Assembly: GCA_947623585.1 (NCBI GenBank)
Contig: CANQHA010000003.1
Span: 62,001-126,000 of the forward strand
Direction: 5' to 3'
Origin: an uncultured Clostridia bacterium
Lineage (GTDB): Bacteria; Bacillota; Clostridia; Oscillospirales; Ruminococcaceae
Length of the DNA: 64,000 nt
Made by a program: the position numbers and the translations under genes. Under the pieces are notes generated by a model, which searched no databases, was not told the DNA's origin, and was given only the letters and a program-made list of their open reading frames with translations. Shown here piece by piece: positions 34,628-40,094 of this stretch; positions within the stretch are counted from its first letter, which is position 1; the number at the start of each line of letters is the position of its first letter.

Positions 34628-34697
34628 CCTAAAAGCATATAAAAATATTTTTCTGCGCATAATATCACCGACATACGATATCGAAAGGAGGATCCCC

Positions 34698-37610: not shown

Positions 37611-38322
37611 AGCGCTCGACTGGATATCCGATCTTTTATTTCCGAACCGCTGTCCGTTTTGCGATTGTTTTATCCCTTGGAACACGGTCGTCTGCGAGAG
37701 CTGCCGCAGCGATATCGTTTTCACCGATTGCTGTCCCAAGTGCGGGCATTCCGAATGCGAGTGCCGATACGGCGATCTTGAATTCGACGGCTGCATAAGC
37801 GTCGCCGAATACGCCGGAAAGTGCCGCGAGGCGATACTTTCATTAAAGCACGGCTACGGCTTCAACGCGGCGAAGTTTTTGACCCCGAGGCTTTCCGAAA
37901 AGCTCAAAGAGCAGGGCTTTGCGCAGACCGGTTCGATAATCACCGCCGTTCCGATGACATATAAAAGAAAGAACCCGACGGGCTATAACCAGTCGGAATA
38001 TATCGCTAAGCTGCTTTCAAAAAGCCTCGGTCTGCCGACAGATTTCGGGCTTTTGGGCAAAAGAAGCTCGTCGCCCGCCCAGCATGAGCTTTCGGCAGCC
38101 GAGCGCCGCGAGGCCGCAAAGCAGGCTTATTTCGCCAAAAAGGGCTGCAAGCGGGCCGAGGGAAAAACGGTGATACTCTGCGACGATATCATAACTACCG
38201 GCAGCACTCTTTCCGAGTGCGCCCGAATACTTAAAAGCTGCGGAGCCGCGACGGTCTACTGCGCGGTTCTGACAGAGACGAAACGCGGTCCCGAAGGAGG
38301 TAACGAAAATGTCCGTGCTTGA
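37603..38322 (+). CDS. comF: ComF-family phosphoribosyltransferase
   Basis: A 239-residue protein with the ComF layout: an N-terminal Cys-rich zinc part (CPFCDCF, CESC, CCPKCGHSECEC) followed by a phosphoribosyltransferase domain with AVPMTYKRKNPTGYNQSEYIA and the PRPP loop VILCDDIITTGSTL near residues 187-200. In naturally competent bacteria ComFC helps DNA enter the cytoplasm with the ComFA helicase; many Clostridia keep only this gene. It overlaps recD2 by 8 bases and mreB by 14, so the three are translationally linked. dprA is also present in this window; other competence genes are not. Confidence 0.9.
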   Translation: MSKALDWISDLLFPNRCPFCDCFIPWNTVVCESCRSDIVFTDCCPKCGHSECECRYGDLEFDGCISVAEYAGKCREAILSLKHGYGFNAAKFLTPRLSEKLKEQGFAQTGSIITAVPMTYKRKNPTGYNQSEYIAKLLSKSLGLPTDFGLLGKRSSSPAQHELSAAERREAAKQAYFAKKGCKRAEGKTVILCDDIITTGSTLSECARILKSCGAATVYCAVLTETKRGPEGGNENVRA

Positions 38323-39325
38323 TCTCGGCATAGATCTCGGCACTGCAAACATAATCATAACCGTCGGAAAAAGCGGCGCAATTCTCAACGAGCCGACGGT
38401 CATAGCCTTTGACAAAAACACCGAGAGCGTAATAGCTTTCGGGCAGGAAGCCTATAAAATGATAGGCCGCGCGCCCGAGCATATCGCGGTGATAAAGCCG
38501 CTCAGAGACGGCGTTATATCAAATAACGACATGGCGCAGGAGCTCATCAGGCTTTGCATTTTAAAGGTCATCGGCAAAAGGCTGATAAACCCGCGCATCG
38601 TCATGTGCGTTCCGAGCGGGATAACCGCCGTCGAGCGAAAAGCCGTCGTTGAAAGCGCGGTCTCGGCGGGCGCAAGGACCGTTTATCTCATCGAAGAACC
38701 CGTCGCCGCGCTTTTGGGAGCAGGGGAGGATATAATGAAGCCGTTCGGCAGAATGGTCGTCGATATCGGCGGCGGCACCTCCGATATCGCGGTCACCTCG
38801 TTGGGAGGGATAGTCGCGGCAAATTCCGTCAAAAAGGCCGGAAACGCTTTCAACGCATCTATTCAGCGCTATTTCGAGGAGGAGCACCGGCTTCTTATCG
38901 GCGAGCGCATGGCCGAGGAGGCGAAGATCTCCTGCGCAAATATGTTCTGGCCGTCCGAAGAAAAAACCGGCGTGATATCCGGAAGAAGCCTTGTCAGCGG
39001 GCTTCCCGCAAGAATGGAGATTTCGGAGGCCGACATCTGCGCCGCTATAACCGACGACGTCGATGACATCATCGCCGCAATAAGAACGGTCTTTGAAATG
39101 ACCCCGCCCGAGCTCGTCGGAGACATTTACGATCACGGAATGGTGCTCACCGGCGGCGGAGCGCTTCTTCGCGGCCTCGATATGTATATCACCCGCGAGT
39201 TCGGCGTCAAATGCTTCGTCGCAAACGACCCGCTCGGCTGCGTGGCGAGAGGCACTCACATGGCGTTTCGGGTAAGGGACAGGCTCAGAAACGGCTTCGA
39301 AAAGGCTTCTGTTTCAAGACTTTGA
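38309..39325 (+). CDS. mreB: Rod-shape actin homologue MreB
   Basis: A 338-residue actin-fold ATPase that forms membrane-bound filaments steering lateral wall synthesis. The phosphate-1 loop GIDLGTANI is at residues 7-15, phosphate-2 VDIGGGTSDIAV lies near 150-161, and the adenosine motif VLTGGGALLRGLD near 275. The PSGITAVERKAV and EEPVAAL segments are MreB-typical. It could equally be Mbl or MreBH; mreC and mreD do not follow, so it is a solitary copy here. GGAGG precedes the ATG within comF. A terminator starts 25 bases after its stop. Confidence 0.93.
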   Translation: MSVLDLGIDLGTANIIITVGKSGAILNEPTVIAFDKNTESVIAFGQEAYKMIGRAPEHIAVIKPLRDGVISNNDMAQELIRLCILKVIGKRLINPRIVMCVPSGITAVERKAVVESAVSAGARTVYLIEEPVAALLGAGEDIMKPFGRMVVDIGGGTSDIAVTSLGGIVAANSVKKAGNAFNASIQRYFEEEHRLLIGERMAEEAKISCANMFWPSEEKTGVISGRSLVSGLPARMEISEADICAAITDDVDDIIAAIRTVFEMTPPELVGDIYDHGMVLTGGGALLRGLDMYITREFGVKCFVANDPLGCVARGTHMAFRVRDRLRNGFEKASVSRL

Positions 39326-39352
39326 ATATAAGCGGAAAATTTTGCCAATAAT
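39324..39352 (+). promoter_or_regulatory. Possible sigma-F promoter of spoIIR
   Basis: GAATA (39324-39328), 15-base spacer, GCCAATAAT (39344-39352) matches the sigma-F pattern GYATA-N15-GGNNANANT with one mismatch in each element. A start about 7 bases downstream would fall at 39359-39361. Confidence 0.45.
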
Positions 39353-39383
39353 CCTCTCGAAAACAAATTCGGGAGGATTTTTT
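39350..39383 (+). terminator. Terminator of mreB containing the spoIIR ribosome binding site
   Basis: A 12-bp stem (39350-39361 with 39368-39379, one G-U pair) with a 6-base loop is followed by T residues up to the ATG of spoIIR at 39384. The 3' arm contains GGGAGG, the only ribosome binding site available to spoIIR. Transcripts from mreB should therefore stop, or have this site masked. Confidence 0.85.
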
Positions 39384-39995
39384 ATGAGCATAGGAAAACT
39401 CACAGCCGCCGCGATAATCTCTCTCATGACGGTTTGCGCGGCGGGGGTGATAAATAATTCCCGCGAGGTCGAGGGCATGACCGACAAGCTGATAAGAATA
39501 CACGTCGTCGCAAATTCCGACAGCGAAAGCGATCAGCGCCTAAAGCTGATGGTCCGAGACGGAATCTTAGGCGAGGTATACGGCCTTGCGGGCGAGTGCA
39601 AAACCAAGCAGGAAGCGCTTTCGGCGATATCGAACGGGCTTGAAGAAATAACCCGCCGCGCCGAAGAGGTCGTTTTGCAAAGCGGCGCGCAGCTTTCGGT
39701 GAGCTGCACTCTTTCTCGCAAGGATTTTCCTCAAAAAAGCTATGACGGCTTCACGCTTCCCGCCGGAGAATACGATGCGCTTTGCGTCCGCCTCGGAAGC
39801 GCCGAGGGCAAAAACTGGTGGTGCGTCTGCTATCCATCGCTTTGCGTCGGAGCTTTCAGCAAAATAGACGACTGCGGGGTCTTCACCGAGGGCGAGCTGA
39901 AAATAGTAACTCAGCCCGAAAAGGTAAGATACAAGCTGTGGTGCTATGAAGCGGTGATGAAGCTGAAAGCGCTGTTCTCAAAAGCCCGTGTCTGA
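39384..39995 (+). CDS. spoIIR: Stage II sporulation protein R
   Basis: A 203-residue secreted signalling protein. A signal anchor is at residues 5-23 (KLTAAAIISLMTVCAAGVI); the family signature follows, LIRIHVVANSDSESDQRLKLMVRDGIL (about 36-62), then a conserved core ending WWCVCYPSLCVG near 145-156. SpoIIR is made in the forespore under sigma-F and activates the SpoIIGA protease that releases sigma-E in the mother cell. Start ATG 39384 lies 7 bases after GGGAGG. The unusual upstream region combines an mreB terminator with that site and a sigma-F-like promoter. Confidence 0.92.
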   Translation: MSIGKLTAAAIISLMTVCAAGVINNSREVEGMTDKLIRIHVVANSDSESDQRLKLMVRDGILGEVYGLAGECKTKQEALSAISNGLEEITRRAEEVVLQSGAQLSVSCTLSRKDFPQKSYDGFTLPAGEYDALCVRLGSAEGKNWWCVCYPSLCVGAFSKIDDCGVFTEGELKIVTQPEKVRYKLWCYEAVMKLKALFSKARV

Positions 39996-40065: not shown

Positions 40066-40094
40066 TTGACAGCGAGCCCCCGCGATGCTAAAAT
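40066..40094 (+). promoter_or_regulatory. Promoter of addBA
   Basis: TTGACA (40066-40071), 17-base spacer, TAAAAT (40089-40094). Confidence 0.8.

Follow-up and report, generated by a model that had tools for sequence, protein, structure and literature searches.

Overlap of a sigma-F-like promoter, a terminator and a ribosome binding site at an mreB/spoIIR junction in Clostridia suggests a promoter-choice lock on a sporulation signal

In transposase genes of the IS10 type, a hairpin at the end of the element hides the ribosome binding site in RNA that runs in from outside, and not in RNA started at the gene's own promoter. In phage T4, long early RNAs of gene e (also of soc, 49 and I-TevI) hide the Shine-Dalgarno sequence (SD) or the start codon in a helix, for gene e with the consequence of 100-fold less lysozyme, while late promoters located just upstream give well translated RNAs from which the helix's 5' strand is missing, that strand being encoded in the promoter region itself (PMC3014915, parts accessible to us). 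A sporulation gene with a similar feature is sigG (spoIIIG) of Bacillus subtilis, for which a large hairpin was proposed to keep RNA reading through from the spoIIG promoter from being translated; RNA started at the sigG promoter, a promoter read by sigma-F, is unable to form this hairpin. The available sections of that paper call the block proposed and name the read-through RNA as not required (PMC5942855). For C. difficile, the excerpts at hand of a study with mapped transcription starts place a sigF-type promoter immediately ahead of sigG, a gene transcribed from the spoIIGA promoter as well, and note that some transcription of spoIIR remains in a sigF mutant (PMC7438776). The confinement of SpoIIR to the forespore in Bacillus ensures that sigma-E waits until the septum has formed and is active in the mother cell, according to the accessible part of PMC3789829.

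The locus considered here is the mreB/spoIIR junction in a stretch of 64,000 nucleotides from an uncultured Clostridia bacterium, which is called the window in the following (Table 1). To our knowledge, it has mostly not been asked how leakage of spoIIR from neighbouring housekeeping genes is prevented. SpoIIR was identified by its match to PF09551 (Spore_II_R; 145.1 bits, cut-off 25), with TIGR02837 reaching 145.7 bits, just below its cut-off of 151.9. Upstream of the gene, sigma-F-type -35 and -10 elements at 15-base spacing are present as a predicted promoter. The sigma-F consensus is GYWTA-N15-GGHRANAHT, and against it the first-pass annotation was right in counting one mismatch per element for GAATA-N15-GCCAATAAT at 39324-39352. 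Likewise, its coordinates were exact for the stem, for the T-run reaching the spoIIR ATG and for GGGAGG in the 3' arm. The last base of the -10 box is also base 3 of the 5' arm. With 12 pairs (5 of them G-C), a loop of 6 and the T-run, the hairpin has the form of an intrinsic terminator and is predicted to terminate transcription in the cell. The arrangement is that of T4 gene e, with the SD in a helix and the 5' strand of this helix upstream of the predicted start of a nearby promoter.

Table 1. Features of the mreB/spoIIR junction, in window positions.
Feature	Position	Strand	Basis or remark
Upstream gene, MreB/Mbl paralogue, expected source of run-in RNA	38309..39325	+	PF06723, 387 bits
mreB stop codon TGA	39323..39325	+	shares two bases with -35 box
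-35 box GAATA of sigma-F-like promoter	39324..39328	+	sequence; motif recovered unsupervised in 129/149 spoIIR upstreams
-10 box GCCAATAAT	39344..39352	+	sequence; same unsupervised motif search
Stem 5' arm AATCCTCTCGAA (anti-SD), in the gap between -10 box and start site	39350..39361	+	terminator search, folding, covariation
Predicted forespore transcription start, about 6-8 bases after -10 box	39358..39360	+	inferred from usual -10 to +1 distance
Hairpin loop, 6 bases	39362..39367	+	terminator search
Stem 3' arm TTCGGGAGGATT, with SD inside	39368..39379	+	terminator search, folding, covariation
spoIIR Shine-Dalgarno sequence (SD) GGGAGG	39371..39376	+	sequence
T-run of six T's, making the hairpin an intrinsic terminator	39378..39383	+	sequence, terminator search
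spoIIR coding sequence, ATG at 39384	39384..39995	+	PF09551, TIGR02837 matches

Upstream of spoIIR, the genes are closely packed. A recD2 gene (TIGR01448, 800.7 bits) is followed by a comF-like gene (TIGR00201, 99.6 bits, below cut-off) and by mreB, and since recD2 overlaps comF and comF overlaps mreB, run-in RNA from mreB is to be expected. The hairpin had been annotated as the mreB terminator; the gene in front of it, however, scores second among the three MreB/Mbl matches of this genome (494.5, 386.7 and 75.9 bits), is placed behind recD2 and the comF-like gene, and is not the main mreB. The MreB paralogue lies within 150 bases upstream of spoIIR in 27 of 31 genus loci and may, for this reason, itself be linked to sporulation. 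Downstream of spoIIR follows an addB-like gene (TIGR02773, 492.6 bits, below cut-off), directly upstream of which a near-consensus sigma-70-type promoter was seen at window positions 40066-40094 (TTGACA, 17, TAAAAT; 11/12). Elsewhere in the window, positions 34635-34663 hold a forespore-promoter-like GCATA-N15-GCGCATAAT with 3 mismatches to the spoIIR pattern.

It is likely that the junction acts as a promoter-choice lock on spoIIR. Run-in RNA from the upstream gene would hold both arms of the stem, and most of it would end at the T-run terminator. In RNA reading through, the SD would be paired to the anti-SD arm, so that spoIIR would hardly be translated, and a ribosome finishing mreB should not hold the hairpin open because this begins 24 bases past the stop codon. 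In the forespore, sigma-F polymerase would use the spoIIR promoter, in which the anti-SD arm is encoded by the -10 box together with the gap to the start site. The resulting RNA would begin past the 5' arm, form no stem, escape termination there and leave the SD exposed. SpoIIR, whose signal across the septum leads to the activation of pro-sigma-E, would thus be made only where sigma-F is active. In this scheme, the start site and the dependence on sigma-F at this locus are inferred, as are the extent of read-through and the consequence for the SpoIIR protein. A switch of this kind had been put forward in the first-pass annotation, and the interpretation is supported by the anatomy, by folding models and by comparative data. 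Its further statement that the signal is kept silent in growing cells has to be widened: the protected cells need not be growing cells only, and run-in RNA would be just as important in the pre-divisional cell or in the mother cell.

The difference in folding between the two RNAs was, like the anatomy, the covariation and the specificity of the pairing, computed directly. In this genome, the predicted probability of the SD being unpaired is 0.0015 in run-in RNA vs 0.40 in RNA from the predicted start. When the start was moved stepwise along the junction, the value remained at 0.002 or below for starts up to 39353 and rose to 0.24-0.33 for starts from 39356 onwards; the SD thus opens in silico just ahead of the predicted start at 39358-39360, and even when open it is only partly free (0.3-0.4). 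The expectation that a forespore transcript without the 5' arm would expose the ribosome binding site is reproduced in folded RNAs, and 28 of the 29 genus members with a called promoter agree (medians 0.01 in run-in vs 0.54 in promoter-initiated RNA), L028 being the only one to fold in the wrong direction.

The fold of the 91-base junction has a z of -3.01, with none of 200 shuffles as good, and the accessibility of the spoIIR SD (0.001) is the lowest among 53 gene starts that were called roughly across the window (next 0.094, median 0.439). Neither half of the junction is rare alone. Terminator-like sites are common (15 in 5 kb vs 9.6, sd 3.5, in shuffles), and the exact promoter pattern, allowing up to 3 mismatches, is not enriched in the genome, with 182 sites vs 223 in a reversed control. 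Two matches with 1 mismatch to the promoter pattern occur in the genome, one between a sigma-factor gene and sigG (L032) and one for which no meaning was evident (L033). What is rare is the combination of terminator and promoter, together with its conservation.

SpoIIR is present in all 30 searched genus members besides the genome of the window. A promoter site above threshold was found in 29 of the 31 genus loci, with GAATA and a spacer of 15 in 19 of them; the two loci without a called promoter (L007, L014) are those where spoIIR lies about 1000 and about 220 bases from mreB. Covariation was assessed in an alignment of 14 of the 31 members, picked for carrying the stem type of the window. 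Here, 92.9% of the cells were paired and 5 of 11 pairs were changed on both sides, and the covariation score of 0.374 compares with 0.238 in shuffles (none of 500 reaching the native value) and with 0.106-0.188 in slid structures. The two arms thus covary in these 14 chosen members. Another group of the genus (e.g., L016, L018, L028, L030) has, as judged by eye, a separate terminator ahead of the promoter, and the pairing is shorter there, between CCTGCC at the -10 box and GGCGGG or GGCAGG at the SD. Matches of sigF type (spore_sigF) were found in all 31 genus genomes, none above the cut-off of the model. In the genome of the window, the match at C1:134067 fits the sigG model better (TIGR02850, 389.5 bits, vs TIGR02885, 295.9 bits), while that at C9:31446 fits sigF better (201.1 vs 146.4 bits).

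For a wider sample of relatives at the level of the order, SpoIIR was matched in 168 of 198 genomes, 149 upstream regions were read, and the pairing analysis took in the 129 of these that had a called promoter. An iterative unsupervised search of the 149 regions returned one two-part motif, G(A/T)ATA-N14/15-G(C/T)C(A/C)ATA(A/C)T, which scores above 99% of shuffled sequences in 129 of the same 149 sequences on which the model was fitted. With one representative for each of 88 genera, pairing was measured between two segments: the one that begins with the -35 box and stops one base short of the start site, which was set 7 bases after the -10 box, and the 22 bases immediately preceding the start codon. 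The mean was -14.75 kcal/mol with the own partner vs -8.79 kcal/mol with exchanged partners (permutation sd 0.28), which corresponds to a native z of -21, the best of 2000 exchanges giving -9.91. Shifted control windows reached z values of -2.0, -2.6 and -2.9 only. The pairing of DNA ahead of the start site with the SD is hence specific to the partner from the same genome and much weaker in shifted windows. The strength differs between genera: 40 of the 88 are within the best 5% of their own mismatched partners and 48 outside, and pairing is strong in 57 and weak in 31, i.e., about a third. The pairing sequences are wholly different between genera, e.g., TCCCGCC/GGCGGGA (L191), ACGCACGTCC/GGACGTGCGT (L193) and GGCCACCCTTACTTT/AAAGTGAGGGTGG (L080).

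Further sets of loci were compared in the same way. A named-organism set of 80 loci (Oscillospiraceae, Ruminococcus, Oscillibacter, Pseudoflavonifractor and others) lost 11 duplicates, 1 locus without start and 14 without promoter, so that 54 were tested and 50 were left after removal of near-copies; these non-redundant loci paired at -12.22 vs -7.64 (z -11.3, 0/5000 permutations), with 20 of the 50 at -12 or below. A lock is also present in this set in Oscillibacter sp. PC13 (L375), a relative that can be cultured. Among 30 top-scoring phylum loci, drawn from 252 matching genomes, 19 were usable and gave a z of -6.5, with relatedness uncontrolled and several loci from one family. With one locus per family, 12 of 40 were usable (-11.74 vs -9.57, z -3.1, 15/5000 permutations), including at least one, L422, whose 'promoter' lies inside an upstream sigma-factor gene and is probably spurious. 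Folding was also compared for 81 of the 88 genus representatives, with the SD unpaired at 0.31 in run-in and 0.54 in promoter RNA, and differences above 0.3 pointing toward open promoter RNA in 41 cases and in the opposite direction in 1. Since upstream parts swapped between genera opened the SD only slightly (median 0.33 vs 0.31 native; native lower in 52/81, p = 0.003), folding was judged the weaker measure: the specific pairing is clear, yet generic structure also closes many SDs.

The junction could also be nothing but a compact terminator, in which the end of mreB overlaps the spoIIR leader and the hiding of the SD is a by-product of crowding. This would fit the T-run of the stem, the presence of at least 4 T's among the last 9 bases ahead of the start in 34 of the 88 representatives, and those genus members in which, by eye, a separate upstream terminator goes along with a weaker SD hairpin (L028). 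However, such T's occur in 30 of the 57 strongly and 4 of the 31 weakly pairing representatives, and a run of 4 T's before the start is absent from the other 27 strong ones. Moreover, the -10 region still pairs with the SD at -13.6 to -16.6 in members with a separate terminator (L016, L018, L023), and sigG has an SD lock without a T-run. This explanation is therefore considered unlikely. Terminator and SD lock are often fused, but not always. The earlier statement that mreB transcripts would both stop and be untranslatable for spoIIR joins two effects that are separable, as follows from the 27 strong pairers and the sigG versions without a T-run and from the members with a separate terminator.

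A lock comparable to that of spoIIR is seen at sigG. In the genome of the window, sigG carries the promoter sequence GAATA-N15-GGCAATAAT, its ATG is preceded by the hairpin ATCTCAAAAC/GTTTTGGGAGAT, and it sits behind a co-directional gene which is sigE by position. A strict-form promoter was found in 26 of 30 fetched sigG loci of the genus, and in 24 of these 26 the SD is more open in promoter RNA (medians 0.15 and 0.61). For the family, 30 loci were fetched, 27 read and 23 used, and over these 23 genera the pairing has a z of -6.6 (0/5000). In a subgroup (e.g., L176, L178, L179), the -10 box itself pairs, ACACTCCGGCAATAATGAT with ATCATTATCCGGAGTGT, at -28.3 kcal/mol. Two designs of the sigG lock are seen in the genus (L101-L108, L165-L186): in one, a short stem occupies the gap before the start site, and in the other, a long stem makes use of the -10 box itself. 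The examined versions have no T-run ahead of the start codon. The promoter threshold was reached in 0 of 29 gpr and 0 of 26 ssp upstream regions of the genus, with no lock among them (one gpr locus without start was left out), so that the lock and promoter element is not general to spore genes.

A further explanation assumes a start further upstream, so that the hairpin would be active in forespore RNA too and serve as a translation brake or sensor, in the manner of the small ribosome binding site hairpin of B. subtilis sigG. A leader hairpin lowering translation 2-4-fold is indeed described for that gene in the accessible part of PMC5942855. Nevertheless, the -10 box overlaps the 5' arm or directly adjoins it, both here and in relatives, and the transcribed leader pairs with the SD zone no better than mismatched partners do (z 0.7, 27 usable), which renders this explanation very improbable. 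That the pairing merely reflects coincidence or motif bias, with GCC- or GTCC-rich -10 boxes naturally pairing with SD-like GGC or GGAC, agrees with the average of -8.8 for mismatched partners but is hardly credible and was rejected, as the motif-preserving partner permutation was beaten in 2000 of 2000 cases for the 88 genera and in 5000 of 5000 for the further 50 loci, and the arms covary in the genus.

Identity and direction of the upstream neighbour were called by all-against-all protein similarity. Most often, in 61 loci, spoIIR has an ispE-type gene as its neighbour, one member of which matches TIGR00154 at 184 bits, above cut-off; mreB comes next (29 loci). The 53 genus representatives with a supported co-directional neighbour have a median pairing of -18.5, 41 of them being at -12 or below, vs 16 of the remaining 35 (rank test p = 1.4e-6, Fisher p = 0.003). 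When orientation was called by the longest frame instead, pairing was unrelated to the direction of the neighbour (51 co-directional vs 31 opposite genera, p = 0.49). As long antisense frames occur in G+C-rich genes, this call was judged unreliable and the call by protein similarity is trusted over it; both results stand. In 25 of the 53 representatives, the junction of the window among them, the upstream stop codon is located within the -35 box or in contact with it (TGAATA or GAATAA).

In other families of the phylum, spoIIR often appears to lie behind sigG, whereas it lies behind other genes in the studied relatives, as far as the encoded protein tails indicate. A sigma-factor tail of the SQAQVSRLEK kind precedes spoIIR in 31 of 70 phylum loci vs 0 of 149 relatives. 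SigG-like C-termini were seen upstream of spoIIR in L306, L310, L315, L319, L320, L324 and L325 and in 24 of L411-L450. By a narrow preference, we favour the view that the lock has repeatedly been rewritten in sequences unrelated to one another, and that it arose or was kept where spoIIR moved from behind sigG to behind a housekeeping gene (ispE or mreB).

The principle of such a lock is already known from T4 gene e and, as a proposal, from B. subtilis sigG. A literature search returned no description of it at spoIIR, which is weak evidence with subscription journals mostly uncovered; within the same limited coverage, there was likewise no fusion of a terminator, an SD lock and a sigma-F-type -10 box, and no order-wide spread with unrelated sequences. 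The accessible text of the B. subtilis sigG paper (PMC5942855) makes no mention of a lock at spoIIR. If true, a promoter-embedded lock which is conserved in function and not in sequence would explain how leakage is blocked and would predict similar locks elsewhere. The junction itself would be a clear natural case in which a single piece of DNA works as a promoter, as a terminator and as a switch of translation. Compared with the transposase genes of the IS10 type, it shares the hiding of the ribosome binding site in run-in RNA, although these guard against transposition and not a developmental step. The sporulation precedent, as far as its accessible description goes, is B. subtilis sigG, in which read-through RNA would likewise be locked and promoter RNA free, while the gene is another one and no terminator is involved; its read-through hairpin is reportedly treated in Masuda 1988 and Sun 1991. 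The exact mechanistic precedent, in the parts of the source available, is T4 gene e, with which spoIIR shares the SD helix whose 5' strand lies in the promoter region. Gene e differs in being a phage gene, in its late sigma factor gp55 and in that no merged terminator is described in those parts (PMC3014915), whereas spoIIR has a sigma-F-type promoter and encodes a developmental signal.
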